Origin: Rhizobacter sp. AJA081-3
GTDB taxonomy: Bacteria; Pseudomonadota; Gammaproteobacteria; Burkholderiales; Burkholderiaceae_C
DNA length: 64,000 bases
Assembly (NCBI RefSeq): GCF_017795745.1
Contig: NZ_CP059067.1
Span: forward strand, 1,860,001-1,924,000
Direction of reading: 5' to 3'
Part shown: positions 24,369-54,046 of the stretch, in pieces
How the letters are laid out: every line of letters starts with the position of its first letter
Numbering within the stretch: position 1 is the stretch's first letter
The notes under the pieces: generated by a model
Databases searched by the model: none
What the model was told of the DNA's origin: nothing
Seen by the model: only the letters and a program-made list of their open reading frames with translations
Translations under genes and position numbers: made by a program

Positions 24369-25097
24369 TCAGGTCGCGAAGTCTTCGCGCCCGGGCTCGA
24401 GGTGCGCGGGCTCGGGCTGCTTGCCGTCGAGCTTCAGCGGGTTGGCCTGGCGCTGCAGGTCTTCGGCGTGCAGCGTGATCTGCGTGCGCCGGCGCGGCAG
24501 GTAGTGGTTGGCCGGCCGCGTGCCCCACTCGGGCATCAGCGGGTAGCCGCCCCGCTCGGTGATGGCCACCGACACGTTGGACTGCGGGTCGTGGATGTCG
24601 CCGAACAGCCGCGCGCCGCTCGGGCAGGCGAGCACGCAGGCCGGCTTGCGCTGCGCCTCGGGCAGGGCCTTGTCGGTGACGCGGTCCACGCACAGCGTGC
24701 ACTTGGTCATCACCTTGCGGTCCTCGTCGAACTCGCGCGCGCCGTAGGGGCAGGCCCAGCTGCAGTACTTGCAGCCGATGCACTTGTCGTAGTCGACCAG
24801 CACGATGCCGTCTTCCGCGCGCTTGTAGCTGGCGCCCGTGGGGCACACCGGCACGCAGGGCGGGTCTTCGCAGTGCAGGCAGCTCTTCGGGAAATGCACC
24901 GTCTGCGTGGCCGGGTACTGGCCGACCTCGAAGGTCTGCACGCGGTTGAAGAAGGTGCCGTTCGGGTCGGCGGCGTAGGGGTTGTCGTCGGTCAGCGGGC
25001 CGGCCGAGCCGGAGGTGTTCCACTGCTTGCAGCTCGTCACGCAGGCGTGGCAACCGACGCAGACGTTCAGGTCGATCACGAGCGCCAGTTGCGTCAT
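24369..25097 (-). CDS. soeB: Sulfite-oxidising complex iron-sulfur subunit SoeB
   Basis: 242-residue ferredoxin-type subunit with four [4Fe-4S] motifs: CVGCHACVTSC at about residues 13-23, CLHCEDPPCVPVCP, CIGCKYCSWACP and CTLCVDRV...CVLACP. There is no signal sequence, in line with a cytoplasmic location. ATG 25097 overlaps the soeA stop as ATGA. It carries electrons from the SoeA molybdenum site to SoeC and quinone. Confidence 0.92.
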   Translation of the reverse strand: MTQLALVIDLNVCVGCHACVTSCKQWNTSGSAGPLTDDNPYAADPNGTFFNRVQTFEVGQYPATQTVHFPKSCLHCEDPPCVPVCPTGASYKRAEDGIVLVDYDKCIGCKYCSWACPYGAREFDEDRKVMTKCTLCVDRVTDKALPEAQRKPACVLACPSGARLFGDIHDPQSNVSVAITERGGYPLMPEWGTRPANHYLPRRRTQITLHAEDLQRQANPLKLDGKQPEPAHLEPGREDFAT

Positions 25098-28006: not shown

Positions 28007-28113
28007 CGATGTCTCTTCACCCGGAGGCCGAACCGCCGGATTGATCGGGTCCGATACACCTGTCGTGAATCGGGTTTTGACTGCCGGTCGATTAGGCGCA
28101 AGGGGCCCCGCGA

Positions 28114-28160
28114 GCGTCTATAGCCGGGACGGGTAATGACCACCTACCCATATGGGGGAT
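28114..28160 (+). promoter_or_regulatory. Bipartite inverted-repeat element, copy 1 (soeA / kinase)
   Basis: Box A (28123-28134, GCCG-GGAC-GGGT) is preceded by GCGTCTATA. Box B (28146-28157, ACCC-ATAT-GGGG) follows with centres 23 bp apart. The same two boxes in the same order and nearly the same spacing occur before dsrA and before soxY/tusA. Box A faces soeA and box B faces the kinase. It is a likely binding site for a dimeric activator, for which the NarL-family protein at 29524 is the nearest candidate. Confidence 0.7.
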
Positions 28161-28218
28161 GCCGGCGCGGGCGCTGCGCCGGGGGCGCGACATCGCCTTG
28201 CATTGCGATTCGTCACAT

Positions 28219-28230
28219 ACCATACAGGGT
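28219..28230 (+). promoter_or_regulatory. Single related box upstream of the kinase gene
   Basis: ACCA-TACA-GGGT inside ATACCATACAGGGTATAG, an imperfect palindrome of the same ACCN-N4-GGGT type as the bipartite elements. It lies 98 bp before the kinase start codon and has no second box 23 bp away. Confidence 0.4.
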
Positions 28231-28328
28231 ATAGGGTGAGGCCCGATGGCGCAGGCCTTGCAAAAGCGCTTCAATCGGCCCACTTTCGACAACGTGGCGC
28301 CAGCGCAGTCGGGCTCGCCGCGGTACCC

Positions 28329-29531
28329 ATGACCCTGTCTCGAACGCCCTCATCGACTGCCACGGCCGAGTTCGCCCGGCCCGCCGGCACGGACCTGCTC
28401 GTGCAGATCACGGCCGGTCTGTCGGAAGGCCAGGACCTGCGTGCGCTGCTCGAGCGCTTTCTCGATCCCATCGTCACGCTGGCCGGCGCGCAGGCCGGTG
28501 CGGTGCGCCTGCTGTCGGACAGCGGCGAGCGGCTGCAGATGGTCAGCGCCATCGGCCTGCCCGACGCGGTGTGCCGCGCCGAGCAGTCGGTGGACCGCCA
28601 TTGCGGCGTGTGCGGCACCGCCGCCGACGGGCACCGCATCGTCTGGGCCACCGAGCTGGGCGCCTGCGCGGCCCGCGGCGCCACGGCCTTCTTCGGCCAG
28701 GAGTGCCACCGCCTGCTCGCGGTGCCGCTGCAACACCGCGGCCGCGTGCTCGGCGTCTACAACCTGTTCTTCGCCGGCGAGGCCGAGCCATCGCCGCAGG
28801 TGATGGCGCTGCTCAAGTCGGTGGGCGAACTGCTCGGCCTGGCGCTGGACAACGCGCGGCTCGAGGCCGAGAGCCTGCGCGCCACCGTCATGCACGAGCG
28901 GCAGATGATGGCCGCGGAGATCCACGACTCGATCGCGCAGACCCTGACCTTCGTCAAGATGCGCCTGCCGCTGCTGCAGGACGCGCTGCTCGTGCACGAC
29001 GACCCGCATGCGATGAAGTACCTGGGCGACGTGCGGCAGGCGGTCGGCGAGGCCCATGCCAGCCTGCGCGAGATCGTGACCCACTTCCGCACCCGCATCG
29101 ACTCGCGCGGCTTGGCGCGCGCGCTCGAATCGCTGGTGGCGCGCTTTCGCGAGCGCAACGCGATCGAACTGAGCTATGTCAAGCGGGGGGCGGCGCTGAG
29201 CCTGTCCACTGAGGTCGAGACGGAGGTGTTCCACATCGTGCAGGAAGCCCTGGCCAACATCGAGCGGCACTCGCGCGCACGGCACGCCTGGATCAGCCTG
29301 GAAGGCGGGCCGGTGGGTTTCGAGCTGCGCGTCGAAGACGACGGCATCGGGCCGCGGCTCGCCGACGAACAATGCGACGAAGGCTCGCACTTCGGCATCG
29401 GCATCATGGGCGAGCGGGCCGTGCGAATGGGTGGCGAGCTGAGCGTGGAGGCGCGGCCGGGCGGTGGCACGCGGGTTCGGCTGGCCTGGAACACCTCCAC
29501 GCCTGCCACTTCGGGATCCGGCCATGACTGA
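28329..29531 (+). CDS. NarX-like cytoplasmic sensor histidine kinase with GAF domain
   Basis: 400 residues. There is no transmembrane segment. A GAF domain spans about residues 20-180 and contains a cysteine cluster (C81, C91, C94 in CRAEQSVDRHCGVC, then GACAARG and GQECHRLL). A HisKA_3 dimerisation domain follows with the phospho-acceptor in MAAEIHDSIAQTLTFVKMRL, then an HATPase domain (EALANIERHS, DDGIG, FGIGIMGERA). It resembles the cytoplasmic half of NarX. The Cys cluster could sense sulfane sulfur or redox, or bind a cofactor; this is inference. The stop overlaps the response-regulator start by 8 bp. Confidence 0.88.
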   Translation: MTLSRTPSSTATAEFARPAGTDLLVQITAGLSEGQDLRALLERFLDPIVTLAGAQAGAVRLLSDSGERLQMVSAIGLPDAVCRAEQSVDRHCGVCGTAADGHRIVWATELGACAARGATAFFGQECHRLLAVPLQHRGRVLGVYNLFFAGEAEPSPQVMALLKSVGELLGLALDNARLEAESLRATVMHERQMMAAEIHDSIAQTLTFVKMRLPLLQDALLVHDDPHAMKYLGDVRQAVGEAHASLREIVTHFRTRIDSRGLARALESLVARFRERNAIELSYVKRGAALSLSTEVETEVFHIVQEALANIERHSRARHAWISLEGGPVGFELRVEDDGIGPRLADEQCDEGSHFGIGIMGERAVRMGGELSVEARPGGGTRVRLAWNTSTPATSGSGHD

Positions 29532-30222
29532 GCCGCGCCTGAAGATCGTGCTGGTCGACGACCACTCGCTGTGCCGCAACGGCCTGACCGACCTGCTGCA
29601 GCATCGCGGCCAGATGACCGTGGCCGCCTCCACCGGCGACCCGGGCGCGGTGGTCGGCCTGCTGCGCGAGCACCAGCCCGACCTGGTGGTGCTCGACCTG
29701 CGCATGCCCACCACCGACGGCCTGAGCCTGCTGCGCCACATCCGCAGCGAGGGTGTGCAGACGCCGGCGGTGATCCTGACCATGAGCGACGCGCAGGACG
29801 ACCTGGCCGCGGCGCTGCGCGCCGGCGTGAGGGGCTACCTGCTGAAGGACATGGAACCCGAGGACGTGATCGCCGCCATCGGCCGCGCCGCCCGCGGCGA
29901 GCTGTCGGTGGCGCCGGCTTTGACGCTCAAGCTCGCGCAGATGCTGCAGGCCGGCCCGGGCGACCCGGAGCGCCGCGACCTGCTGTCGTCGCTGACGGAG
30001 CGCGAGCGCCAGATCCTCGACCACCTGGCGCGCGGCGAGAGCAACAAGACGATCGCGCGCGCGCTCGAGATCAGCCATGACACCGTCAAGCTGCATGTGC
30101 GGCACATCCTCACCAAGCTGAACCTCAACTCGCGGGTCGAAGCGGCGGTGTTCGCAGTCGAGCAGCGCGCCTCGCCGCAGGCCACCAGCCTGGTCGAATC
30201 GGCTAGGCGAACGCCTCGCTGA
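29524..30222 (+). CDS. NarL/FixJ-family response regulator
   Basis: 232 residues. The receiver domain has the acidic pair VDDHS and the acceptor aspartate in [12 protein letters not shown], with K in YLLKDM. The C-terminal LuxR-type HTH shows [40 protein letters not shown]. It is co-transcribed with the NarX-like kinase (8-bp overlap) and ends 20 bp into the convergent methyltransferase gene. Its position between soe and dsr operons makes it the prime candidate to bind the repeated ACCC-N4-GGGT elements. Confidence 0.92.
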
Positions 30223-31413: not shown

Positions 31414-31767
31414 TCAGTGTTCGCCCTTGGTGCGCAGCAGGCCGGCCAGCCGGTTGCCCTGCTTTTGCGGCCCGCCGCGCGGGAACATCTCGTGCAGGTG
31501 GTGGTTGCTGCCGCGCTGCGGCCCCCACACCTCGGTGAAGTGGCGGATCATCACGCGCACCTGCGCCTGCACGCCATGCTCCGCGTAGTACTGGCGCAGG
31601 AAGCGGATCAGCTCCCAGTGCGCCTCGGTGAGTGCCAGCCCCTCTCGCTGCGCGAGGGCGCGGGCGAAGTCCTCCGACCAGTCGGACAGGCGCCGCAGGT
31701 AGCCCTCCGAGTCGATCTCGATCTCGCGATTCCCCACGCGGATCGTGTCCTTCAGCGTGTCGACCAT
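31414..31767 (-). CDS. DsrC-family paralogue lacking both C-terminal cysteines (RspA-like), copy 1
   Basis: 117 residues with the DsrC/TusE fold: REIEIDSEGYLRRLSDWSEDFARALA, LTEAHWELIRFLRQYYAEHG, VRVMIRHF. The C-terminal arm ends GNRLAGLLRTKGEH and has neither of the two redox cysteines seen in DsrC. Cysteine-less DsrC relatives have been named RspA and proposed to be regulatory. ATG 31767 overlaps the dsrN stop by 16 bp, so it is coupled to the dsr operon. It cannot form the DsrC trisulfide and may bind DsrC partners competitively. Confidence 0.83.
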   Translation of the reverse strand: MVDTLKDTIRVGNREIEIDSEGYLRRLSDWSEDFARALAQREGLALTEAHWELIRFLRQYYAEHGVQAQVRVMIRHFTEVWGPQRGSNHHLHEMFPRGGPQKQGNRLAGLLRTKGEH

Positions 31768-33203
31768 GCGGGCTCCTCCTGAGGCTGCGGCCGCAGCCGG
31801 GCGAGCTGTGCGCCCTCGCTGTGCTTCACCTCGCGCACGAAGGCCATGAAGCGCCTCGGCCAGTCGTTGCCGCCGGTGTGGCGAAGGTGCGCATACGAGG
31901 CCAGCACGTTGTGCACGAGCACACCGTCGCGGCAGCCACCGATGCCGTGGCCGCGCTGTACGCGGTAGGCAAAAGGCACCGAGGGGTCGAGGTTCTCCAG
32001 GCTGGAGTGGTGGAACTCGTGGCCCAGGCGCACCGCGCCGGCCGGCGCCGCGGCGTCGCGCGGCCAGGGAAAATCGGCGGTCTCCTGCAGCCGCACGTAG
32101 CCGCGGCCCACCGGCCGCTCGTGCATCACCGCGTCGCCGGGGATGGCGCCGACCATCTGCGCGCTGCGGCCGTTCCAGTTCAGCGTGCGCGCCAGGTACA
32201 TCAGCCCGCCGCATTCGGCGTAGACCGGCAGGCCGTCGGCGATGGCGCGGTGCAGCTGCGTGCGCAGTGAGACGTTGGCTTCCAGCTCGGCCATGAACAG
32301 CTCCGGGAAGCCCCCACCGATGAACAAGCCGTCGAGCGCCGGCAGCTGCGCGTCACGCAGCGTGTCGATGGGCACCAGCGTCGCGCCCTCGGCTTCGAGC
32401 GCGGCCAGGTCGTCGGGGTAGTAGAAGCCGAAGGCCTTGTCGCGGGCGATGCCGATGCGCAGGCCGCCGCGCTGCTGCATTCCGGGCTGAGTCGTCACCG
32501 GCAGCGAAGCGGTGGTCGCCGTGGCGGCCAGCGCCAGGATGCGCGGCAGGTCCACCTGCGCTGCGATCACTTCGCCCATCGCGCGAACCCGCGCCGACGC
32601 GTCATCGATCTCGCGGTCGGGCATCAGGCCGAGGTGGCGCTCGACGAGCTCCAGCCGGGAGTCGTTCTGCACCGCGCCGAGCACCGGCACTTCGGTGTAG
32701 TGCTCGATCACCGCGCGCAGCTTGGCCTCGTGGCGCGAGCCGCCGAGGCGGTTGAGGATCACGCCGCCGATGCGGATGTCGCGGTCGAAGGCCTGGTAGC
32801 CCAGGATCAGCGGCGCGATGCCGCGCGTCATGCCGCGCGCGTCGAGCACCAGCAGCACCGGCAGGCCGAGCTGCTTGGCCAGCGCCGCATTGCTGTTGCT
32901 GCCGTCCAGCGCCAGGCCGTCGTACAGGCCCTTGTTGCCCTCGACCAGGCGCAGTCCGGCGCCGGCACCGTGCTGCGCGAAGCAGCTGTCGATCTCGGCA
33001 TGCGCCATCAGCATCGGGTCGAGGTTCACGCAGGCGCGGCCAGCGGCCAGCGACAGCCACATCGGGTCGATGTAGTCCGGCCCCTTCTTGAAGGGCTGCA
33101 CGAGGTGGCCGCGCAGCGCCAGCGCGGCGGCCAGGCCGAGCGTCACCGTCGTCTTGCCCGACGACTTGTGCGCAGCGGAGACGAGCAGGCCGGGCGTTCC
33201 CAT
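31752..33203 (-). CDS. dsrN: DsrN, cobyrinate a,c-diamide synthase-like siroheme amidase
   Basis: 483 residues. The N-terminal P-loop-like amidoligase domain starts GLLVSAAHKSSGKTTVTLGL and has KKGPDYIDPMW and EGNKGLYDG. The C-terminal glutamine amidotransferase domain carries the nucleophile cysteine in YAECGGLMYL and GHEFHHS. It resembles CbiA. DsrN converts siroheme to the siroheme amide used by the reverse-type sulfite reductase. The gene starts 4 bp after dsrP. Confidence 0.92.
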   Translation of the reverse strand: MGTPGLLVSAAHKSSGKTTVTLGLAAALALRGHLVQPFKKGPDYIDPMWLSLAAGRACVNLDPMLMAHAEIDSCFAQHGAGAGLRLVEGNKGLYDGLALDGSNSNAALAKQLGLPVLLVLDARGMTRGIAPLILGYQAFDRDIRIGGVILNRLGGSRHEAKLRAVIEHYTEVPVLGAVQNDSRLELVERHLGLMPDREIDDASARVRAMGEVIAAQVDLPRILALAATATTASLPVTTQPGMQQRGGLRIGIARDKAFGFYYPDDLAALEAEGATLVPIDTLRDAQLPALDGLFIGGGFPELFMAELEANVSLRTQLHRAIADGLPVYAECGGLMYLARTLNWNGRSAQMVGAIPGDAVMHERPVGRGYVRLQETADFPWPRDAAAPAGAVRLGHEFHHSSLENLDPSVPFAYRVQRGHGIGGCRDGVLVHNVLASYAHLRHTGGNDWPRRFMAFVREVKHSEGAQLARLRPQPQEEPAWSTR

Positions 33204-42342: not shown

Positions 42343-43635
42343 TCAGGCGGTCTTCTTCGCGTTGATGCGGGCGACTTCGTCGTCCCAGCCATCCATGCGA
42401 ACGTAGGGGTTGGTGCGCGGCGTGGCGACCATGTTCGGGTCGATGTCCACGCCGATGCCTTCGAGGAAATTGACCAGGCCGATGCGCTCGATCATCTCGC
42501 CGGTGCGCTCGTGCTCGAGCGCGTTCTCGGCGAAGAAGTCGATCACCTTCTGGCCGAGCTCGACCAGCGCCTCGTAGTCTTCCTCGGTCTTCAGCGGCAG
42601 GAAAGGCACGACCACGGTGCCCATCAGGTCGCCGATCTTCAGCGTGCGCTTGCCGCCGATCAGGATGGTGGCGCCGGTGTCGGTGCCCTTGGCCAGCGCG
42701 CCGGTCATCACGTTGACGCAGTGCATGCAGCGCACGCAGTTGCTGTTGTCGATCTCCAGCGCGTGGCTGTCGCTGATCTTCACGCTGGAGATGGTCGGGC
42801 CCTGGGCGACGTCCTTGACCTCCTTGAGCAGGATGGTCTTGGTCGGGCAGCGCGAGATCACGTTGTTGACCAGCTCGTTCATGCCGTGGGCATCGAACCA
42901 CTTGCGCGCCAGGCCTTCGTCGGTGCGCATGTTGTCGCGCCAGGTGCCGATGACGGCCATGTCCGAGCGCTGGATCGAGTTCATGCAGTCGTTCGGGCAG
43001 CCCGAGAACTTGAACTTGAACTTGTAGGGCAGCGCCGGGCGGTGGATGTCGTCGAGGAAGGTGTTGATCACCTGCCGGTGCGCCTTGGCCTCGTCGTAGC
43101 AGCTCTGCTCGCAGCGCGCCGCGCCGACGCAGCTCATCGAGGTGCGCACCGCCGGGCCGGCGCCGCCGAGGTCGAATCCGAGCTCGTTGAGCTCGTCGAA
43201 GGCGTCCTGCACCTTGTCGGTCTTGGCGCCCTGGAACATGATGTCCCCGGACTGGCCGTGGAAGGCGATCAGGCCCGAGCCGTGGCGCTCCCAGATGTCG
43301 CACATCTTGCGCAGCACCTCGGTGTTGTAGTGCATGCCGGCGGGCGGCTGCACGCGCAGCGTGTGGAACTCGGCGGCGTCGGGGAACACCGGCTTGTCGT
43401 TCTCGTCCTTCAGCTCGGTGAAGCGCGGGATCACGCCGCCGCCGTAGCCGAACACGCCGACCGTGCCGCCCTTCCAGTAGCCCTTCTTGGTGCGGTAGGA
43501 CGTCTCCAGCTGACCCATCAGGTCGACCATGTAGTCCTTGTCCTTGGCCAGCCGCTTCAGGCCGGTCACGAAACTGGGCCAGGGTCCGCTCTCGAGCTGG
43601 TCGAGCATCGGCGTGTCGTGCATCTTCTTGGCCAT
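42343..43635 (-). CDS. dsrA: Dissimilatory sulfite reductase (reverse type) alpha subunit DsrA
   Basis: 430 residues. The sirohaem-[4Fe-4S] ligands are the C-x5-C of SCVGAARC and the C-x3-C of SGCPNDC. The ferredoxin domain has NCVRCMHC. The accompanying dsrEFH, dsrL and dsrN genes identify the oxidative (reverse) type. ATG 43635 has AAGGAG at 8 bp; an ATG two codons upstream is too close to it. First gene of a roughly 13-kb operon. Confidence 0.97.
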   Translation of the reverse strand: MAKKMHDTPMLDQLESGPWPSFVTGLKRLAKDKDYMVDLMGQLETSYRTKKGYWKGGTVGVFGYGGGVIPRFTELKDENDKPVFPDAAEFHTLRVQPPAGMHYNTEVLRKMCDIWERHGSGLIAFHGQSGDIMFQGAKTDKVQDAFDELNELGFDLGGAGPAVRTSMSCVGAARCEQSCYDEAKAHRQVINTFLDDIHRPALPYKFKFKFSGCPNDCMNSIQRSDMAVIGTWRDNMRTDEGLARKWFDAHGMNELVNNVISRCPTKTILLKEVKDVAQGPTISSVKISDSHALEIDNSNCVRCMHCVNVMTGALAKGTDTGATILIGGKRTLKIGDLMGTVVVPFLPLKTEEDYEALVELGQKVIDFFAENALEHERTGEMIERIGLVNFLEGIGVDIDPNMVATPRTNPYVRMDGWDDEVARINAKKTA

Positions 43636-43711
43636 GGTCATGTCTCCTTGGGTGGACGGATCCTAGGCAGCCCCCCCGGCGCGCGCCATCACTCTGGTTG
43701 GGTGCCGAGGC

Positions 43712-43759
43712 ATTACCCAAAAGGGTTATGCGGGGCTTACCCGTCGCGGTGATAGACGC
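43712..43759 (-). promoter_or_regulatory. Bipartite inverted-repeat element, copy 2 (dsrA / orf43804)
   Basis: Box B (43715-43726, ACCC-AAAA-GGGT, within ATTACCC...GGGTTAT) and box A (43739-43750, read on the minus strand as ACCG-CGAC-GGGT, preceded by GCGTCTATC). The centres are 24 bp apart. Box B is 79 bp from the dsrA start and box A 53 bp from the start at 43804. The same element occurs at 28114 and 53472. Confidence 0.72.
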
Positions 43760-43803
43760 CCCGTGCCCCTGCCGCGCTCAATGGCGAGGCATTGGAGAGC
43801 GTC

Positions 43804-44019
43804 ATGACCCGTGTGACACCGCTGGACAAGCTGCGCGTGCCCCTGGGCGGACAGGAGATCGAGCTGCAGCAGATCGACTTCGAGGCCGGCGGCATGAGCC
43901 TGCTGCGCACCCGCATCCGCGAGAAGAGCCGCTTCACCGTGTTCGAGATCGACGCGCAGACGGCGGCGGCGTGGGGGCAGGCCCTGCTGCGCTGGGCAGA
44001 TTCGCAGCAGGCGCGATGA
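43804..44019 (+). CDS. Small conserved-looking protein, first gene of the divergent operon
   Basis: 71 residues: TPLDKLRVPLGGQEIELQQIDFEAGGMSLLRTRIREKSRFTVFEID then a short helix. It has no signal, membrane segment or cysteine. I recall similar short DUF proteins beside sulfur genes but cannot name the family with confidence. ATG 43804 is preceded by GGAGAGCGTC. Its stop overlaps the next ATG by 4 bp, so it is coupled to the Cas6-like gene. Confidence 0.7.
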   Translation: MTRVTPLDKLRVPLGGQEIELQQIDFEAGGMSLLRTRIREKSRFTVFEIDAQTAAAWGQALLRWADSQQAR

Positions 44020-44627
44020 ACACCGCTGCAGCCGCACGCGTCGACGTGGCCTTCCCCCTGCAAGGCCACGCTCTGCCTCGCGACCACCGTCTCGCGCTCG
44101 CGCAGGCTGTCGCGGCGGTGCTGCCCTGGCTCGCCGACGACCCGCAGGCCGCGGTGCACCCGGTGAAGCTGGTGCACGGCAGCGGCGAGCCGGCGCTGCT
44201 GTCGGCCCGCTCGCGGCTGATGCTGCGCGTGGCGCGAGAGCGGGCCGCCGAGCTGCACGCACTGGCCGGCCGCACGCTGCGCGTGGCCGGTCACGAGCTC
44301 ACACTCGGCGAACCGCAACTGCGCGAGCTGCTGCCGCACACCACGCTGTACGCGCATTTCGTCGACGCGGGCGAGGCCGACGAGGCTGCCTTCCTCGACG
44401 CCGTCGGCGCCGAGTTGCAGCAGCTCGACGTGAGCTGTCACCGCGTCTGCGGGCGCGAACAGGAATGGCGCGGCCCGCAGCGGCCGCTGCACGGCTTCAG
44501 CCTGATGTTGCACGGCCTGCGCGCCGCGGCGGCGCTGCGGGTGCTGGAGCAGGGCCTGGGGGCGCACCGGCTGCTGGGCTGCGGCGTGTTCGTGCCGCAC
44601 AAGTCGGCCGCCGCCGTGGGCGATTGA
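44016..44627 (+). CDS. Cas6/Cmx6-like protein (type I-MYXAN Cas6 family) outside a CRISPR locus
   Basis: 203 residues. The pattern matches what I know of the Cmx6 family: VDVAFPLQGHALPRDHRLAL at the N-terminus, an AVHPVKL strand, LSARSRLMLRV, LAGRTLRVAGHELTLG, TLYAHFV, and a C-terminal FSLMLHGL ... LEQGLGAHRLLGCGVFVPHK, a RAMP-like glycine-rich loop. Cas6 proteins cut CRISPR repeat RNA. No repeat array or other cas gene is visible in the window. It is translationally coupled (ATGA) to the 71-residue gene and precedes a DsrC paralogue, so it may have been recruited to bind or process another RNA, or may be a non-catalytic relative. Confidence 0.72.
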   Translation: MNTAAAARVDVAFPLQGHALPRDHRLALAQAVAAVLPWLADDPQAAVHPVKLVHGSGEPALLSARSRLMLRVARERAAELHALAGRTLRVAGHELTLGEPQLRELLPHTTLYAHFVDAGEADEAAFLDAVGAELQQLDVSCHRVCGREQEWRGPQRPLHGFSLMLHGLRAAAALRVLEQGLGAHRLLGCGVFVPHKSAAAVGD

Positions 44628-44654
44628 GTGACCTGAACGAGGAGATCCTGAACG

Positions 44655-44984
44655 ATGAGCTACACCGTGAACGGCGCCGAACTCGAGACCGACGGCGAGG
44701 GCTACCTGCTCGAACCCGACTACAGCGACGAGGTGGTGCGCGTGATCGCCGCCGCCGAGAACATCACGCTGACCGACGAGCACTGGAAGGTCGTCAACTA
44801 CCTGCGCGACGAGTACCGCGAGCACGGCCACACGCCCAACTTCCGCAACATGCTCAAGGGCCTGGGCGCGGTGATGCCCGGCTGCGACAGCAAGGCGCTG
44901 TACGACCTGTTCCCCACCGGCCCGGCCAAGCAGGGCGCCAAGGTGGCCGGCCTGCCGCAGCCGCTGGGCAAGGGCGGGTACTGA
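44655..44984 (+). CDS. DsrC-family paralogue lacking both C-terminal cysteines, copy 2
   Basis: 109 residues, closer to true DsrC than copy 1: GAELETDGEGYLLEPDYSDEVV, TDEHWKVVNYLRDEYREHG, LYDLFPTGPAKQGAKVAGLP. The C-terminal arm ends PQPLGKGGY. At the CysB position there is glycine (KQGAK instead of KQACK), and CysA is absent. The only cysteine is internal (PGCDS). It therefore cannot carry sulfur as DsrC or TusE does. It follows the Cas6-like gene by 27 bp. Confidence 0.87.
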   Translation: MSYTVNGAELETDGEGYLLEPDYSDEVVRVIAAAENITLTDEHWKVVNYLRDEYREHGHTPNFRNMLKGLGAVMPGCDSKALYDLFPTGPAKQGAKVAGLPQPLGKGGY

Positions 44985-44993
44985 GCCCACATC

Positions 44994-45605
44994 ATGGCCA
45001 CCAACCTGCGCATCAAGGCCCACTGGTTCAAGGCCGAGCAGCCGAAGAGCCCGGAGCAGACCGCCAGCGCGATGGCCTTCATCGCCTGGCGCGTGGCGAT
45101 CAACATGCTCAAGCGCATGCGCGAGGCGGGTTTCGACATCGACGCCGGGCCGGCCTACTTCGGCTTCGTGCGCGAGGTGCTGGTGTTCCTCCTGTGCGGC
45201 ATCGACCGCATGGCCTATGCGCAGCTGGGCGCCGAGGCACGCACGCCGTTCACCACCGCGCTGGTGCTGCGGGTGGCGGAGATCCTGCGCGAGAACGAGG
45301 CCGACCTGCTCGGCCCGGTCGAAGGCGACGACTACCGCGAGCGCTTCATCGACCAGTTCAATGCGCTGTCCTCGCACTACGCCGAGTTCGGCTGGAGCGA
45401 GCCCGATGGCCCCGACTTCGCCTTCGTGCGCTATCTCGGCAGCCGGCTCGAGGCCACCGTGCCGGAGAAGGATCGCCACTGGGTCATCGACCAGGTGATG
45501 GCGGCCGAGGTGCCCGAGGCCGTGGGCATGCTGCAGCGTTCGATGCAGGGTGTGTTCTCGACCGAGCCGCGCAGCGCGCGGCGCGGCTCGCTGAGTGGAG
45601 ACTGA
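44994..45605 (+). CDS. Uncharacterised helical protein
   Basis: 203 residues, mostly predicted helix: HWFKAEQPKSPEQTASAMAFIAWRVAINMLKRMREAG, FVREVLVFLLCGIDRMAYA, FRERFIDQFNAL-type segments and RHWVIDQVMAAEVP. No known motif, signal or clear transmembrane segment is seen. It lies 9 bp after the DsrC paralogue and 2 bp before the dioxygenase gene, so co-translation is likely. Family not recognised. Confidence 0.72.
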   Translation: MATNLRIKAHWFKAEQPKSPEQTASAMAFIAWRVAINMLKRMREAGFDIDAGPAYFGFVREVLVFLLCGIDRMAYAQLGAEARTPFTTALVLRVAEILRENEADLLGPVEGDDYRERFIDQFNALSSHYAEFGWSEPDGPDFAFVRYLGSRLEATVPEKDRHWVIDQVMAAEVPEAVGMLQRSMQGVFSTEPRSARRGSLSGD

Positions 45606-45607
45606 CG

Positions 45608-46531
45608 ATGAACGCCATGCCGGCCCCGATCACGCCACGCACCGGCGGCGTCGCGGGCAACCCGTTCGACCTCGACGACGACCGTGCCTGGCGCGACTGG
45701 CGCGAGGCCAAGCTGGCCGACCTGCCGCGCAGCGCCGAGTTGCTCACGGTGAGCCTGCGCGACCCGCTGGCGCTCACCCCGGCGGAGCGCACGGCGCTGC
45801 TCGATCGCTGCGCGCGCCACAACATGGTCCTCTATCGCAGCCCGGCCACGGGCGAAGACAAGGCGCTGACCCGCGAGCTCGGCCGCCAGCTCGGCCTGCA
45901 GCGGCTCGATGCCAACTGGCTGGCCGACGAGGACGGCATCTCGCCGATCACCGTGCGCGAGGGTGCCGGCCCGGCGGCGGCCTTCATCCCGTACACCAAC
46001 CGCGCCATCAGGTGGCACACCGACGGCTACTACCACCCGCCGCAGCGCGCCATCCGCGGCATGATCCTGCACTGCGTGCGACCCGCCGCCAGCGGCGGCA
46101 GCAACCACCTGCTCGACCACGAGCTCGCCTACCTGATGCTGCGCGACGCCGACCCGGCCCATGTGCACGCACTGATGGCCGACGACGCGATGACCATCCC
46201 GGCGCGCACCGATGAAGCGGGCGTGGCCCGGCCGGCGCAGTCCGGCCCGGTGTTCAGCGTCGATGCGCTGGGCCAGCTGCACATGCGCTACACGGCGCGC
46301 ACGCGCAGCATCGAGTGGAAGGACGACGCCGCCACGCGCGCGGCGGTGGCCTGCCTGGAGGCGCTGCTGGCCAGCCCGTCGGCGCCGGTGCTGTGCGTGC
46401 ACCTGGAACCCGGCATGGGCCTGGTGTCGAACAACGTGCTGCACGACCGCGACGCCTTCATCGACGACCCGCAGCGCCCGCGCCTTCTCTATCGAGCGCG
46501 CTACCTCGATCGTGTCGCCGAGCCGGACTGA
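45608..46531 (+). CDS. TauD/TfdA-like Fe(II)/2-oxoglutarate dioxygenase
   Basis: 307 residues. The metal-binding HxD is in RWHTDGYYHPP, the distal histidine in SNNVLHDRDAF, and a candidate 2-oxoglutarate-binding arginine in LLYRARYLD; these fit the TauD/gamma-butyrobetaine hydroxylase group. TauD releases sulfite from taurine; the substrate here is unknown, but a sulfonate or another sulfur-containing compound would suit the context. It starts 2 bp after the 203-residue gene. Confidence 0.82.
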   Translation: MNAMPAPITPRTGGVAGNPFDLDDDRAWRDWREAKLADLPRSAELLTVSLRDPLALTPAERTALLDRCARHNMVLYRSPATGEDKALTRELGRQLGLQRLDANWLADEDGISPITVREGAGPAAAFIPYTNRAIRWHTDGYYHPPQRAIRGMILHCVRPAASGGSNHLLDHELAYLMLRDADPAHVHALMADDAMTIPARTDEAGVARPAQSGPVFSVDALGQLHMRYTARTRSIEWKDDAATRAAVACLEALLASPSAPVLCVHLEPGMGLVSNNVLHDRDAFIDDPQRPRLLYRARYLDRVAEPD

Positions 46532-46543
46532 GACGAGCCGCTC

Positions 46544-48025
46544 ATGTCCCGATGGCTCACCGTCTGGCGCGCCGCCCACCTCGTGGGCGTGCCCCGCGGC
46601 GTGCTGCAGCAGCGCGTGCGCAACGGCGAGCTGCCGCTGTCCGACGGCATGGTCTCCACCGATGCACTGCTGCGCCTGTACCCGCAGGCCCAGCTCGAGG
46701 ACGGCGGCCTGCTCGAGCGTGTCGTTCAGATCAAGGACGAGGCCTTCGGCCGGCGCGTGCGCGAGCGCATCCTGCCCAGCCAGGAGGTGCTGGCGCAGCG
46801 GCTGTTCCGCCAGAGCCAGGAGCTGGCCAACCTGCGCCGCCACCTGCAGTGCTACCACGCGCTGGTGCTGGAGTTGCGCGACGCCGCGCGTGCGCAGTCC
46901 GAAGCGGCGCCGCAGGACGAGGGGCTGCGCCGCCTCCTCGCCCAGGCGAGCTCGGGCCTGGCCCGCGCGCTCGCCACCGAACCCGTCGACAGGCTGGACG
47001 TGATGGACGACATGCTCAAGGTGATGTGTGCCCAGGTGACGGTGCGCCCGAGCGGCCACCAGTTCAGCGTGGAGGGCCACGACACGCTGCTGCAGGCGGG
47101 GCTGCGCGCCGGCCTGAAGCTCAACTACGGCTGCGGCAACGGCACCTGCGGCATGTGCAAGGTGCGTGTCATCGACGGCGAGGTGGCGCGCGTGCAGCAC
47201 ACCGACTACCCGCTGTCCGAGGCCGAGAAGGCGCAGGGCTACACGCTGATGTGCGCCCACACGGCAGCCAGCAGCGAGCTGACGCTGGAGACGCTGGAGG
47301 CCGGTGGCCCGCGTGACATCGCGCCGCAGCAGATCGTCACCACCGTGCGCCAGGTGCGCGAACTGGGCGCCGACACGCGCATGCTGCACCTGCAGACGCC
47401 CCGCACGCACCGGCTGCGCTTCCTCGCCGGCCAGTCGGTGACGCTCGGCCTGAGCGGCGGCAACTCGGGCAAGGACGACACGCACCTCACGCTGCCGGTG
47501 GCGAGCTGCCCCTGCGACGACCGCAATCTGCTCTTCCTGGTCGCCCGCGAGGCCGACGATTCGTTCTCTCGCCAGGTGTTCGACGGCGGCCTGCAGCCCG
47601 GCGCATCGATCGACCTGTGGGGGCCGGTGGGCGAGTTCGTGCTGGACAGCGACGAGCGGCCGCTGGTGTTCGCAGCCTGCGACCTCGGCTTCGCGCCGGT
47701 GAAGAGCCTCATCGAGCATGCCCTGGCGCGCGACGAGGCGCCCTCGCTGTCGCTGTTCTGGCTGGCCACGCGGCCCGACGGCCACTTCCTGGCCAACCAG
47801 TGCCGTGCCTGGTCGTCGGCGCTGGACGGTTTCGAGCACCACCTCGCGTACCACAGCGACGTCTCCGCCGGCGCACGGCAGCTCGCGCAGGCGATGCGTG
47901 CCGACCTGTTCGACATCGCCTGCGACTTCTACCTCGCTGGGCCCGAAGCTTTCGTGCACAGGCTGCACGATGAACTGCGCGCCGCCGGCGTCGCGGCCGG
48001 GCAGATCCGCACGGAGGTGCTGTGA
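46544..48025 (+). CDS. HTH-like N-terminus fused to [2Fe-2S] ferredoxin and FNR-type flavoreductase
   Basis: 493 residues in three parts. Residues 1-45 look like a MerR-type HTH (TVWRAAHLVGVPRGVLQQRVRNG), followed by a helical, probably coiled-coil stretch to about 160. Residues 165-265 form a plant-type [2Fe-2S] ferredoxin (NYGCGNGTCGMCKV, MCAH). Residues 270-493 form a ferredoxin-NADP+ reductase-like FAD and NAD(P)H domain (AGQSVTLGL, FAACDLGFAPVKSLIEHAL, FYLAGPEAFV). It resembles oxygenase reductases with an added N-terminus and may donate electrons to the neighbouring dioxygenase or act as a redox-responsive regulator. It begins 12 bp after the dioxygenase. Confidence 0.8.
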   Translation: MSRWLTVWRAAHLVGVPRGVLQQRVRNGELPLSDGMVSTDALLRLYPQAQLEDGGLLERVVQIKDEAFGRRVRERILPSQEVLAQRLFRQSQELANLRRHLQCYHALVLELRDAARAQSEAAPQDEGLRRLLAQASSGLARALATEPVDRLDVMDDMLKVMCAQVTVRPSGHQFSVEGHDTLLQAGLRAGLKLNYGCGNGTCGMCKVRVIDGEVARVQHTDYPLSEAEKAQGYTLMCAHTAASSELTLETLEAGGPRDIAPQQIVTTVRQVRELGADTRMLHLQTPRTHRLRFLAGQSVTLGLSGGNSGKDDTHLTLPVASCPCDDRNLLFLVAREADDSFSRQVFDGGLQPGASIDLWGPVGEFVLDSDERPLVFAACDLGFAPVKSLIEHALARDEAPSLSLFWLATRPDGHFLANQCRAWSSALDGFEHHLAYHSDVSAGARQLAQAMRADLFDIACDFYLAGPEAFVHRLHDELRAAGVAAGQIRTEVL

Positions 48026-48339
48026 TGAGCGGCTGCGACAGCGGCAGCGAGTCGTTCGCGCTGATGGTGCTGGGCGACAGCATGGTGCCGGAGTTCAACG
48101 AGGGCGAGATCATCGTCGTCGAGCCCGATGGCGCCACCCGCGACGGCTCCTTCGTGCTCGCCTTCGTCGGCGAGGAGTGGACCTTCCGCCAGCTGCGCCG
48201 CGAGGGCGAGGGCTGGCGACTGCAGCCGCTCAACCCCGCCTACGCCGCCACGCCGCTGCCCGACCTCGCCGCCTTGCGCGGCGTGGTCATCCAGAAGGCG
48301 CTGCCCGGGCGGCGCCGCGCCTCCAAGCGCTACGTGTGA
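48025..48339 (+). CDS. LexA/S24-like domain protein without DNA-binding domain
   Basis: 104 residues. FALMVLGDSMVPEFNEGEIIVVEP carries the S24 nucleophile motif GDSM. At the place where LexA-type peptidases have the catalytic lysine (usually xVKRL) the sequence reads WTFRQL, so lysine appears to be replaced by arginine. No HTH is attached. It probably acts as a binding or sensor module rather than an autoprotease. ATG 48025 overlaps the preceding stop as TGATG. Confidence 0.78.
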   Translation: MSGCDSGSESFALMVLGDSMVPEFNEGEIIVVEPDGATRDGSFVLAFVGEEWTFRQLRREGEGWRLQPLNPAYAATPLPDLAALRGVVIQKALPGRRRASKRYV

Positions 48340-48355
48340 ACCGGAGATTCATCCC

Positions 48356-48574
48356 GTGCCCTATTACCTGTACCGCGTCATGCCGCTGGGCGTGCTGAAG
48401 AAGCTGAACCAGTTCGAGCGCTTCCGCGAGGCGTCCGCCGAGGCCAAGGCACTGCGTGCGACAGACCCACCGGGCACGCCGGGCAAGGTGAAGGTCATGT
48501 TCGCCGACAACGAACTGCAGGCCGAAGACCTGCTCGGCCAGGTCCGCGAAGCCGGGCCGAGCGGTGACGACTGA
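48356..48574 (+). CDS. Small uncharacterised protein
   Basis: 72 residues: VPYYLYRVMPLGVLKKLNQFERFREASAEAKALRA, KVKVMFADNELQAEDLLGQV. It starts with GTG 48356, 9 bp after GGAG. The Tyr-rich start and the EASAEAKALR and ADNELQAEDLL segments look conserved to me, but I cannot name the family. It follows the S24-like gene by 16 bp. Confidence 0.7.
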   Translation: MPYYLYRVMPLGVLKKLNQFERFREASAEAKALRATDPPGTPGKVKVMFADNELQAEDLLGQVREAGPSGDD

Positions 48575-48584
48575 GGGCCACGGG

Positions 48585-49028
48585 ATGGACGACCGGGGTT
48601 CCGCGGCCTCGTCGTGCTGCCACGGGCCATCGGCCTGCGTGTTCACCAAGGCCTTGATGGCGCGCTCGGCCAGTTGCGAGCTGGCCACTCGCCATGCGAT
48701 GGGCGAGACGGATGCCATGACCTGCGGCTCGCCGGTCGCGCATGCCAACTGCACGACGCTGTCCGCCTTGCTGCGTGAACGTGCCGGTTTCGTGCTGCGG
48801 CTGCCGCGCCCGCCTTCGCCGCTGACGCACGTCAAGGCGCTGCAGCTGCAATGCGGCGGCCTGATCGCCCTGCAGCACATCCTGGAAGCACCGGGAGACG
48901 ACGTGCACCGCATGATCGGCCTGGCGCACGAGCGCCACGGCAGCCTGCTCGACCTGCCCTGGAGAGCGATGGTCGATGCCATCGCGGCCTGGCAGCCGCG
49001 CCGGCGTCGCCCTGGCCCCGTCGCATGA
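48585..49028 (+). CDS. Cysteine-rich uncharacterised protein
   Basis: 147 residues. The N-terminal half has cysteines in SCCHGPSAC, SASCELA, MTCGSP and HANCTTL, then a hydrophobic-basic part LLRERAGFVLRLPRP and LQLQCGGLIALQHIL. The spacing suggests metal or iron-sulfur binding, but no standard motif is complete. ATG 48585 is chosen; GTG 48564, inside the previous gene, is an alternative. The stop overlaps the next ATG by 4 bp. Confidence 0.68.
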   Translation: MDDRGSAASSCCHGPSACVFTKALMARSASCELATRHAMGETDAMTCGSPVAHANCTTLSALLRERAGFVLRLPRPPSPLTHVKALQLQCGGLIALQHILEAPGDDVHRMIGLAHERHGSLLDLPWRAMVDAIAAWQPRRRRPGPVA

Positions 49029-50080
49029 AGCTTCAGCCCCTCATCGAGGCGGTGCAGACCAACTGCCACATCGCCGATGCGCGCCACGCCGCCGACCTGA
49101 GCCTGTGCACCTTCCTGCTGCAGATGCGCGAGTTCTACCGCTGGGAGAAGGGCCTGCCGCTGGGTGCGGCGCTGTCGCGAGAGGCGGTGGGGCAGTGGCT
49201 GGCGCGTCGTGAGGCACACTGGGCCGACCTGGAAGACCGCGACTTCGTGCGCCTGCCCGTGGGCGAGGGCAGCGAATTCGATGCGTTCGACGTGGCGGCG
49301 CTGAACGCGCTGCTGCAGCCGCACGGCCTGGTCTACGGGGCGGGCCTGGTCGGGCCGCAGCGGCCGGTCTTCTTCATCGCCGAGCTCGACCACCTGCAGA
49401 CCCTGGATGACGGTGTCACGCTGCAGGTGTGCGGCCGCGAGTTTGCCCGCAGCCTGCTGGCGCCGCCCGCGGCGCTGCAGGGCGAGCGCATCGTGTTGCG
49501 CCGCGAATCGATGGCGCGTTGGTTGTGGGAGAAGTTCGAAGCGCTGGGCCTGAAGAAGCTCGACGGGCCGTTCCGTGCCGTGTCGCGCGCCTACGGCCTC
49601 GAGGAGGATTTCCACGCCGCGCTGCCACGCCTGCTCGACGAGCAGAGCCGCACCCTGGTGCTGCACGAGCTCGGTGAGCACCGCGCCGGCCGCTGGCTGG
49701 AACCCGGCTGGGCGGCCATGCGCCTGGCGCTGCAGGATCGGCGCACCGAGTTGCTGGTGCGCGCCGTGCGCGACCACATCGCCGACTTCACGCACACCCT
49801 GCCCACGCTGCTGGCCGAGGGCTCGGCCGCGTCGATCCACTTCTGGTTCGCCGGCTTCGACGGATTGCGGCGCCAGCTGTTCCCCACGCTGGTCGATGCC
49901 TACCAGGCCTGGTGTGCGGGCGATGCGGGCAGGGCGTTGCAGGCCCACACCGGGCGCGGTGCGCTGCACTTCACGCGGCTGGCCGAGCAGGTGCTGGCCT
50001 TGCATGCGCAGCATGCGGCGGCCGCCGAAACGCACATCGAGGCGCTGCTCTCGTCGTCGCAGGCGGTCTGCCGCGGCTAG
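49025..50080 (+). CDS. Uncharacterised protein, possibly Sfum_1244-like
   Basis: 351 residues, soluble, mainly helical. The N-terminus KLQPLIEAVQTNCHIADARHA followed by LCTFLLQMREFYRWEKGLPL recalls proteins named after Sfum_1244, though this is from memory. The C-terminal half is helical with RVLARHAQHA-like segments and no catalytic motif I can identify. It is the last gene of the plus-strand operon and ends 7 bp before a convergent gene. Confidence 0.7.
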   Translation: MKLQPLIEAVQTNCHIADARHAADLSLCTFLLQMREFYRWEKGLPLGAALSREAVGQWLARREAHWADLEDRDFVRLPVGEGSEFDAFDVAALNALLQPHGLVYGAGLVGPQRPVFFIAELDHLQTLDDGVTLQVCGREFARSLLAPPAALQGERIVLRRESMARWLWEKFEALGLKKLDGPFRAVSRAYGLEEDFHAALPRLLDEQSRTLVLHELGEHRAGRWLEPGWAAMRLALQDRRTELLVRAVRDHIADFTHTLPTLLAEGSAASIHFWFAGFDGLRRQLFPTLVDAYQAWCAGDAGRALQAHTGRGALHFTRLAEQVLALHAQHAAAAETHIEALLSSSQAVCRG

Positions 50081-50087
50081 TTCTTGT

Positions 50088-50657
50088 TCACTGCGGCTTC
50101 TTGATCGTCATCGCGCCGCGGATCTGGCCGAGTCCGTAGCCCACCGCCTTGTCGTCGGGGTAGAGCGCGGCCAGCCGCGCCTTCACGGCGGGGCTGAGCC
50201 GGTCGTCCGTGCCGTGGCAGCCCAGGCAGAGCTCCTGCGTGGGCAGTGCGCGCATGTAGCGGTACACCGCGCGGCCGTCTTCCTGCACCAGTTCGGCCCG
50301 CTCCAACGTGGCCGGCTTCTCGCCGGCCGCGGCCCGGCGGTCGAAATCCAGCAGCGCGGCCTGCTCCCAGGCGTCGGGCACGGCCTTCGGGTTGCGGTTG
50401 CGCAGGCTCACGCGGCGTACCGCCCAGCCGGTCTCCTGCGAGGCCGCGCGAGCCAGCCTGGGGGCCTCGTCGCGGCACATGGCGATCGCGCCTTCGGGGC
50501 CCGACTGCTTGATCTCCTCGGTCAGCACCGACAGCAGCTTGGGCGGCACCGAGCCGGCCACGGCCCGCGCTTCGGCGACCCAGGCCTCTTCTGCGGCCAG
50601 CGCCGGCAGCGCGAGCAATGCGGAAGGTGCCAGCAGGGCGATGATCAGTTTCTTCAT
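50088..50657 (-). CDS. Periplasmic Tll0287-like haem-domain protein (DUF3365)
   Basis: 189 residues with signal peptide (KKLIIALLAPSALLALPALA). One c-type haem site, CLGCHG, lies near residue 150. The upstream part (AIAMCRDEAPRLA, WAVRRVSLRNRNPKAVPDAWEQ, RYMRAL) fits DUF3365/Tll0287-like redox-sensor domains. It is the last gene of the tusA group and presumably acts as a periplasmic electron carrier or sensor. Confidence 0.85.
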   Translation of the reverse strand: MKKLIIALLAPSALLALPALAAEEAWVAEARAVAGSVPPKLLSVLTEEIKQSGPEGAIAMCRDEAPRLARAASQETGWAVRRVSLRNRNPKAVPDAWEQAALLDFDRRAAAGEKPATLERAELVQEDGRAVYRYMRALPTQELCLGCHGTDDRLSPAVKARLAALYPDDKAVGYGLGQIRGAMTIKKPQ

Positions 50658-53471: not shown

Positions 53472-53518
53472 GCGTCTATTACCGCGATGGGTGAGGCCTG
53501 ATAGCCCATTTGGGTAAT
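53472..53518 (+). promoter_or_regulatory. Bipartite inverted-repeat element, copy 3 (tusA / soxY)
   Basis: Box A (53481-53492, ACCG-CGAT-GGGT, preceded by GCGTCTATT) and box B (53504-53515, GCCC-ATTT-GGGT, within ATAGCCC...GGGTAAT). The centres are 23 bp apart, as in copy 1. Box A is 54 bp from the tusA start and box B 72 bp from the soxY start, mirroring the dsrA region. Confidence 0.72.
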
Positions 53519-53587: not shown

Positions 53588-54046
53588 ATGCAAACCCGTC
53601 GAGAAATGCTGACGCGCAGTGCGTCCGTGGCTGCCGCGCTGGCAGGGCTGGGGCTGCTGCCCCAGGCGGCGCAGGCGGCCTGGTCGCAGGCTGCGTTCGA
53701 TGCCAAGACCATGGGCGACCTGATGAAGGCGCTGGGCACCTCGGGCCCCGCCGAGAGCAAGGACGTCACCATCACCGGCCCCGACATCGCCGAGAACGGC
53801 GCCGTGGTGCCGGTGGGCGCGTCGACCACGCTGGCCGGCGCCAAGCGCATGCTGCTGCTGGTCGAGAAGAACCCGTCGATGCTGGCGGCGCTGTTCGACG
53901 TCACCGATGCGGTGGAGCCCAACATCTCCACCCGCGTGAAGATGGGCCAGTCGTCCAACGTGATCGCCGTGGTGATCACCGCCGACAACAAGGTGCTCTT
54001 CGCGCAGAAGGAAATCAAGGTCACGCTCGGCGGCTGCGGCGGCTGA
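53588..54046 (+). CDS. soxY: SoxY, thiosulfate-oxidation carrier protein
   Basis: 152 residues with a Tat signal (QTRREMLTRSASVAAALAGLG). The C-terminus GGCGG carries the cysteine that binds sulfur intermediates in the periplasm. SoxY with SoxZ presents the substrate to SoxXA, SoxB and SoxCD; none of those genes is in this window. It is divergent from tusA. Confidence 0.95.
   Translation: MQTRREMLTRSASVAAALAGLGLLPQAAQAAWSQAAFDAKTMGDLMKALGTSGPAESKDVTITGPDIAENGAVVPVGASTTLAGAKRMLLLVEKNPSMLAALFDVTDAVEPNISTRVKMGQSSNVIAVVITADNKVLFAQKEIKVTLGGCGG

Follow-up and report, generated by a model that had tools for sequence, protein, structure and literature searches.

What does a ten-gene operon that combines a Cas6 homologue, a DsrC relative lacking its redox cysteines and a TauD-like oxygenase do next to dsrA, in a genome of the sulfur-oxidizing type? 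We addressed this question on a stretch of 64,000 nt of Rhizobacter sp. AJA081-3 (contig NZ_CP059067.1, positions 1,860,001-1,924,000; GCF_017795745.1), hereafter the window. The initial annotation of this DNA had described ten compact plus-strand genes divergent from dsrA with a common control region, and had suggested that they form a module attached to reverse sulfite reduction. The listing of open reading frames (ORFs) agrees with this layout: the ten ORFs follow each other with, in order, a 4-nt overlap, gaps of 27, 9, 2 and 12 nt, a 1-nt overlap, gaps of 16 and 10 nt and a 4-nt overlap, and the 162-bp gap to dsrA carries a conserved operator-like palindrome (Table 1). The operon is genuine; it is broadly conserved and, in the literature searched, for the most part undescribed. 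We tentatively favor the reading that it is a compact accessory module of reverse sulfite reduction, run from the dsrA operator region, in which the DsrC relative would be a non-catalytic occupant of a docking site.

The link to dsr was assessed in 370 genomes of the same class, at least 90% complete, scanned for cmx6 (gene 2, the Cas6 homologue), dsrA and Sfum_1244 (gene 10). cmx6 matched in 128 genomes and dsrA scored over its cut-off in 123, to which two genomes with low-scoring fragments at contig edges (G201 and G241) were added by hand, giving 125. Both genes are present in 122 genomes, cmx6 only in 6, dsrA only in 3 and neither in 239 (Fisher p = 4.8e-86; the Fisher and shuffle statistics throughout ignore kinship among genomes). 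They lie less than 5 kb apart in 91 of the 98 pairs located on the same contig, all 91 of them divergent. Contig ends account for seven of the nine mismatched genomes: the contig ends at dsrA or its neighbor tauD in G101, G113 and G192, just past tauD in G066, G087 and G117, and just past cmx6 in G286; a dsrB fragment also lies at the contig end in G066, and dsrB was not found in G087, G117, G270 and G286. The other two mismatches are G270 and G362. Sfum_1244 matched in 83 genomes, 78 of which are also dsrA-positive. In a second draw of 397 genomes from the phylum, scanned for dsrA and cmx6, dsrA was found in 38 genomes and cmx6 in 5, all five belonging to this class and carrying dsrA. The search for the gene set against dsrAB in other genomes, which the initial annotation had put forward as a check, thus found cmx6 tracking dsrA across the class, with the genes neither occurring mainly in genomes without dsr nor confined to one strain; these counts and the divergent adjacency support the suggested attachment to reverse sulfite reduction.

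The operon is not conserved as a whole. We ran hidden Markov model searches in 161 loci, i.e. 160 neighborhoods, most of them chosen for holding cmx6, dsrA or Sfum_1244, plus the window; the loci overlap in part (L050 and L147 have identical sites). Gene 2 was found in 100 loci, gene 3 in 97 (canonical DsrC included), gene 4 in 93, gene 5 in 75 and gene 10 in 115. The low counts of genes 1, 6, 7, 8 and 9 (7, 9, 19, 7 and 6 loci, respectively, gene 1 being masked in L216, where it shares a frame with cmx6) rule out all ten genes as a universal set. A core of five genes (cmx6, the dsrC-like gene, the 203-aa gene 4, tauD and Sfum_1244) recurs in a wider dsr-linked island, and forms a single operon in the window. 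Most loci of the class have dsrA on one side and, divergent from it, a series made up of tauD, c5 (72 aa), sometimes c11, cmx6, the DsrC-like gene and c9; some kb further, Sfum_1244 and gene 4 stand back to back in 75 of the 86 loci having both, and less than 500 nt apart in 58. Small proteins and two more clusters of 2-oxoglutarate (2OG)-Fe(II) oxygenases, c6 (PKHD-type) in 36 and c10 in 28 of 80 loci (L040-L119), are also found there; an island can hold up to three oxygenases (c6 and c10 recur, e.g. in L043, L044, L050 and L128). In the genus and the order of the window, the core genes are packed as one operon, with the order gene 1-cmx6-dsrC-like-gene 4-tauD kept in four loci of the genus (L096-L099) and three of the same order (L215-L217, where the fetched stretch lacks Sfum_1244). 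In L216, DUF6967 (the gene 1 family) and Cmx6 lie in one open frame of 322 codons (12731-13696, minus strand), an apparent gene fusion. Because the same set occurs in two arrangements, and given this apparent fusion, there is good evidence that the core genes work together. A chance cluster specific to this strain is ruled out by the co-occurrence with dsrA and the recurrence of the core across the class.

Outside the class, five of 17 dsrA loci from 16 genomes (L200-L204, probably Alphaproteobacteria) carry tauD, c5 and/or DUF6967 divergent from dsrA, and 12 have no core genes. tauD is divergent from dsrA in most of L040-L099 and in four of L200-L204 (it was not found in L201). A common family for c5 and gene 1 had been considered; since c5 and DUF6967 stand side by side in the same outside-class loci, they are separate families. 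The outside-class loci L205-L214, L218 and L219, with no core genes near dsrA, come in part from genomes with two dsrA copies, and in the ten tested genomes among them the best DsrC match is of the GCV type; these loci may be reductive-type.

The most distinctive member of the core is gene 3. It belongs to the DsrC family (PF04358, TIGR03342), as does DsrC itself, the sulfur carrier and gamma subunit of sulfite reductase; both are encoded beside dsrA and both keep the Trp, Arg and Pro residues and the GLP arm (W44, R64, P87, P90, Q93, G99 and P101 are common to the two types). Unlike DsrC, however, gene 3 lacks both redox cysteines: the penultimate one (CysA) is replaced in a tail that ends KGGY instead of GCV, and the second arm cysteine (CysB) is missing from KQGAKVAGLP, which reads KQACKIAGLP in the window's own dsrC. 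Its arm is also two residues longer, with 8 residues past GLP against 6 in DsrC, and the single C-terminal cysteine typical of TusE is absent. The protein had been called a cysteine-less DsrC, which holds for the two redox cysteines but not for the whole chain, as one Cys remains (PGCDSK). RspA, a name for cysteine-free DsrC-like proteins, would cover gene 3, which has the DsrC domain without the two cysteines; a pairing of RspA with DsrC in that sense returned nothing relevant in the literature searched.

This tail is not a peculiarity of the window. Among 111 DsrC-family ORFs in L040-L219 and the window, 94 end KGGY, 75 of which have no cysteine at all. When only ORFs on the same strand within 1.5 kb of cmx6 are considered, 85 of 86 end KGGY, the exception being an extra copy in L051 that ends GCS. 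The 17 other ORFs comprise 7 canonical ones (GCV or GCI) located away from cmx6 and 9 with other tails. In total, 90 of 103 cmx6 loci hold a KGGY gene, and genomes as small as 1.0-1.1 Mb (G042, G132 and G232) retain tauD-c5-cmx6-KGGY DsrC-c9 beside dsrA. In a tree of the core domain without the tail (88 rows and few columns), the KGGY label needs 3 changes compared with 29.4 when shuffled, and a single KGGY clade is not rejected (p-AU = 0.203). The KGGY DsrC is, by its sequence, a distinct family.

To follow this family further, a KGGY-only profile was searched in 65 hand-picked genomes and the C-terminal tails were read; for dsrA-positive genomes, 10 were taken from the 125 in the class and 16 from the 33 outside it (the 6 best-scoring for dsrA and 10 of the remainder), and 39 were drawn from the 245 dsrA-negative genomes of the class. 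The KGGY type was found in 9 of the 10 and in 5 of the 16, all five among the 6 best-scoring, and in none of the 39, four of which have TusE-like matches ending in cysteine tails (SCI, RCM or RCL). In the outside-class genomes, no cmx6 accompanies the KGGY gene, which has no conserved neighbor in the five loci compared. Because it stands alone there and was found in none of the 39 dsrA-negative genomes, the KGGY type follows dsr rather than its neighborhood.

In extracts of a study on Ca. Thiodiazotropha endolucinida (PMC13137333), three DsrC/TusE genes are among the 36 symbiont genes highly expressed in all three hosts, one of them, peg.3252, being 11 numbers away from the dsrC peg.3241 (beside tusB/dsrH). 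From the gene numbering in these extracts, peg.3252 would be the KGGY copy if dsrA lies near peg.3246. For A. vinosum, parts of PMC11267869 report that growth on pyrite brings a ~7-fold drop of Alvin_1508, one of four extra DsrC-family genes, together with the dsr genes, and a rise of the other three.

Other DsrC relatives were encountered on the way. The window has a third DsrC-family domain (31417-32352, minus strand), located where its dsr region ends on the far side; it ends RTKGEH, without a C-terminal cysteine, and is neither DsrC, TusE nor the KGGY type. A further DsrC-like family ending FGS(V/T)A occurs near Sfum_1244 (L136:9509, L139:9061, L141:2778, L148:2002, L154:1178 and L164:8480), with one member, L273:4865, near a KGGY gene instead. 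No phage copies of the KGGY DsrC were found; four IMG/VR phage contigs (L276-L279) encode a two-cysteine DsrC ending GCI.

We then turn to the control region. The k-mers of 85 dsrA-divergent spacers led to a palindrome, TATCCC-N4-GGGATA, a form of which is present in 45 of these same 85 spacers, from which its regular expression had been derived, compared with a mean of 0.62 and a maximum of 3 after shuffling. The strict form TATCYC-N4-GRGATA has 35 copies in 2.83 Mb (181 loci). Of these, 32 precede dsrA or tauD by no more than 450 nt, and 3 are found ahead of the island genes c14 or c15. The window holds three copies of its own version, one exact and two degenerate, each between divergent sulfur or regulator genes (Table 1), and 400 kb taken from 20 other places of the genome hold none at up to 2 mismatches. 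Because the copies sit at sulfur-oxidation and regulator genes and were found nowhere else in these 400 kb, the operon appears to share a regulatory signal with the sulfur-oxidation genes. No sigma-70 promoter was predicted across 43500-50300, and an Rfam scan of 30000-51000 gave one sub-threshold match only.

This conserved palindrome opens another reading of gene 3, namely that the KGGY DsrC regulates the dsr regulon, by DNA binding or signaling, with the palindrome or its vicinity as the site of action, and that the operon is mainly regulatory. The loss of the redox cysteines with retention of the fold residues would fit such a role, and DsrC is reportedly able to bind the dsr promoter in A. 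vinosum. However, conservation in the KGGY type falls on the C-terminal arm, the part of DsrC that enters DsrAB, and not on a DNA-binding face, and a better candidate for binding is the NarL-type two-component system encoded beside another copy of the palindrome (28152-30222). We therefore regard a regulatory KGGY DsrC as unlikely. That the NarL-type system binds the palindrome is itself a guess, made from the TACCC half-site, which is read as such from the NarL consensus. In that region (25094-30222), a molybdoenzyme gene (Pfam Molybdopterin; soeA-like is our own label) is divergent from a GAF histidine kinase and the NarL-type response regulator (29464-30222), and it is possible that they form a sulfur-oxidation two-component system with a degenerate dsr palindrome in between.

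The Cas6/Cmx6-like call for gene 2 is upheld by its TIGR02807 score, over the cut-off. Its only clear solved relative is a type I-B Cas6 (PDB 8fcj chain B; profile E = 5.7e-29, nearly full-length alignment), and all 18 aligned sequences keep H24 and S162, RNA cleavage being only predicted. A true Cas6 relative might be taken for the remnant of a defense system based on clustered regularly interspaced short palindromic repeats (CRISPR), lying beside dsr by chance. The window's Cmx6 differs from the type I-B protein in that it is tied to dsr genes, with no CRISPR machinery found in the genome: Cas1 (PF01867) and Cas3-HD (PF18019) have no match there while both match in control genomes, and no repeat array is present in the window. 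A contrasting case is provided by G362, the sole cmx6 genome of the draw with no other module genes beside cmx6. No other Cmx6 reaches as high a score against the CRISPR model, and on the same contig a shared 36-bp repeat occurs four times at ~72-bp spacing, a CRISPR-like array (L114:1877-2134); for these two reasons, it serves as a CRISPR-type control. Given this contrast and the near-perfect linkage to dsr, we rejected the remnant, which we consider highly improbable.

Gene 5 had been called TauD-like, and the Pfam match confirms it (Table 1). Its metal triad HxD...H (H137, D139 and H279) is invariant in 14 of 14 sequences. Such a gene is not new beside dsr: PMC7596348 cites Lenk et al, 2012, for the name dsrQ, and gene 5 is likewise a TauD-family gene divergent from the dsr cluster. 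Here it is the fifth of a ten-gene operon with cmx6 and the KGGY DsrC, neither of which is mentioned in the extracts of PMC7596348 examined. The description of the operon as undescribed is thus only partly right: it fails for tauD/dsrQ, while for the remaining genes nothing was found in the literature searched.

The same extracts report the idea that DsrQ cleaves sulfonates oxygenolytically to supply sulfite, which would leave the other genes as helpers. Membership of the TauD family and intact metal ligands speak for it, but the closest curated or solved relatives of gene 5 are trimethylamine-type hydroxylases, not taurine dioxygenase, and neither the Cas6 homologue nor the KGGY DsrC, nor their retention in the 1.0-1.1 Mb genomes, is accounted for; sulfonate cleavage seems improbable to us. 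The nearest solved relative is TmpA, the 2-trimethylaminoethylphosphonate hydroxylase (PDB 6npb, E = 1.4e-7), which aligns over only ~160 residues and whose genomic role is unrelated to that of gene 5. As TmpA acts on a quaternary amine, and as clusters c6 and c10 add further oxygenases to the island, one may ask whether the RKGGY tail is itself a substrate: its Lys or Tyr could be altered by an oxygenase or another island enzyme, or the tail trimmed to Gly-Gly, giving a cofactor-bearing or conjugated DsrC. The near-absolute conservation of the four terminal residues would be expected of such a site. Against it, the KGGY gene has no conserved neighbor outside the class, and no E1-like, JAB-like or radical-SAM protein was detected with Pfam among the ten island sequences scanned, which makes tail modification quite unlikely, if somewhat less so than sulfonate cleavage.

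We return to the accessory module as our preferred reading. The sequences establish that the module co-occurs with dsrA and lies divergent from it, that the KGGY tail is fixed and that the palindrome is shared; from there on, we infer the biochemical steps. The operon would behave as a single-transcript-like unit under the same operator region as dsrA, with the NarL-type two-component system as its likely regulator. The KGGY DsrC would have kept the DsrC fold and the partner-binding residues and lost sulfur carriage. Docked at the site of DsrC, it may fill the siroheme channel of DsrAB (or a site of DsrEFH or DsrMKJOP) with its longer arm and terminal Tyr. It would then hold the place or serve as a gate, protecting rDsrAB or setting its timing, until persulfurated DsrC drives it out. 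This plug is suggested because the arm is longer, the redox cysteines are absent and the Tyr end is fixed. The ability of the DsrC arm to reach the siroheme pocket is discussed in parts of PMC3397948. Dsr expression is probably set by the Cas6 homologue through its action on a structured RNA, which it would bind or cut, DsrQ would consume O2 and 2-oxoglutarate, and DsrQ, Sfum_1244 and the 203-aa helical protein may be maturation or protection factors.

Several observations weigh against this proposal. Two nearly complete genomes (G117 and G286, 99-100%) carry the module without detected dsrA or dsrB, their contigs ending at tauD or cmx6, and G270 (91% complete) has the module without dsrA and with no contig end seen to excuse it. 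No KGGY gene lies in the fetched stretch of 13 of the 103 cmx6 loci, some of these stretches being cut short, and in L161 the DsrC-like gene beside c9, where the KGGY gene is expected, has a different tail. The search for the KGGY type was negative in G062 and G717, as well as in the 10 outside-class genomes with lower dsrA scores, where the best matches end GCV, and both the KGGY copies and the 85 spacers contain near-duplicate loci. The structure models are of single chains, with no KGGY-DsrAB complex among them. As for Cmx6, H24 is an Asn in the solved Cas6 8fcj_B, and no consistent hairpin was found for it in the module or dsr spacers: mean z is -0.48 for the cmx6/dsrC-like spacer and -1.49 for the dsrC-like/c9 spacer, and the hairpins of the dsr operon (20 genomes and the window) are scattered and not recurrent. 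Lastly, cmx6 was found in none of the 33 dsrA genomes of other classes in the phylum draw, so that it is a class-level partner and not a requirement of every Dsr system. Because both are absent from tested outside-class dsrA genomes, and with 13 cmx6 loci lacking KGGY, neither cmx6 nor the KGGY type is needed for every Dsr system.

A bolder form of the proposal, rather doubtful to us at present, is that the oxidative DsrAB of Proteobacteria has a dedicated gatekeeper, namely a DsrC without redox function that plugs the siroheme channel with its fixed RKGGY arm, and that in this class it is made together with an exapted Cas6 processing dsr RNA. If true, the reverse Dsr pathway would have had a missing half until now, and a CRISPR RNase family would have been fixed in an operon of energy metabolism, the Cas6 relative being a domesticated member at work in metabolism. 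A DsrC mimic presumably unable to carry sulfur, with its fixed C-terminal motif and near-perfect link to dsrA, offers a direct way into a question of the sulfur cycle, namely what gates oxidative DsrAB, shields it from oxygen and governs its supply by DsrC. In practice, the labels "type I-MYXAN CRISPR-associated protein Cas6/Cmx6" and "TusE/DsrC sulfur relay protein" mislead in these genomes: cmx6 and KGGY genes mark oxidative dsr, and a count of functional DsrC should leave KGGY proteins out.

The remaining proteins are less informative. Gene 10 scores far above the cut-off of the Sfum_1244/DUF6866 model (NF045620), which carries no functional name, and the family here tracks dsrA. Its invariant residues H214, E215, E218, D250, D254 and H272 might form a metal site. 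The structure models of gene 10 and of gene 4, which is helical, have a predicted local distance difference test (pLDDT) score of 94 and 89, respectively; a PDB fold search with them gave no match under E 0.7, and no PDB sequence relative was convincing. Neither Pfam nor NCBIfam has a model that genes 4, 8 or 9 match at E 0.1. For gene 6, annotated as a fusion of a helix-turn-helix with a ferredoxin reductase, the Fer2 and FAD domains were recovered, but no helix-turn-helix domain reached E 0.1 in Pfam. The S24-like domain proposed for gene 7 is present; the GDSM serine is there, and the Lys position of the S24 dyad reads Arg when located by eye, without a LexA alignment.

In the literature searched, Sfum_1244, DUF6866 and DUF6967 are not mentioned, the text matches for cmx6 are unrelated by title, and no pairing of Cmx6 with DsrC was found; those texts containing both dsrA and Cas6 of which passages were looked into speak of Cas6 in a CRISPR context.

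Table 1. Features of the operon, of the divergent dsrA gene and of the palindrome copies in the window.
Feature	Position	Strand	Evidence or remark
dsrA, first gene of the divergent dsr operon	42343..43641	-	TIGR02064 519.7 bits
Control region common to dsrA and the operon, 162 bp	43642..43803	.	ORF coordinates; compared with genus relatives
Palindrome ATTACCC-AAAA-GGGTTAT (ATTACCCAAAAGGGTTAT), likely operator	43712..43729	.	only exact match in the window
Gene 1, DUF6967, 71 aa	43804..44019	+	Pfam PF22295 E 1.2e-29
Gene 2, Cas6/Cmx6 family	44016..44627	+	PF09559; TIGR02807 149.9 bits, cut-off 98.85
Gene 3, DsrC paralog, KGGY C-terminus	44655..44984	+	PF04358 E 5.4e-33; TIGR03342 96.9 bits; tail GLPQPLGKGGY
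Gene 4, 203 aa, all-helical	44994..45605	+	no family, no PDB fold match
Gene 5, TauD-like 2-oxoglutarate oxygenase (DsrQ)	45608..46531	+	Pfam TauD E 7.7e-23
Gene 6, [2Fe-2S]-flavin reductase with N-terminal extension	46544..48025	+	Pfam Fer2, FAD_binding_6; NAD_binding_1 below cut-off
Gene 7, S24/LexA-fold domain protein	48025..48339	+	Pfam Peptidase_S24 E 1.1e-18
Gene 8, 72 aa, GTG start	48356..48574	+	ORF only
Gene 9, Cys-rich, 147 aa	48585..49028	+	ORF only
Gene 10, Sfum_1244/DUF6866 family	49025..50080	+	DUF6866 N and C; NCBIfam NF045620 404.7 bits, cut-off 150
Second palindrome copy, 1 mismatch	53501..53518	.	between tusA-dsrE2 and soxY
Third palindrome copy, 2 mismatches	28120..28137	.	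between soeA-like molybdoenzyme gene and NarL-type two-component system

Downstream of the operon, ARAGORN predicts a tRNA-Ser at 53625-53716, inside the soxY ORF (53588-54046) and on the same strand, which is probably a false positive.

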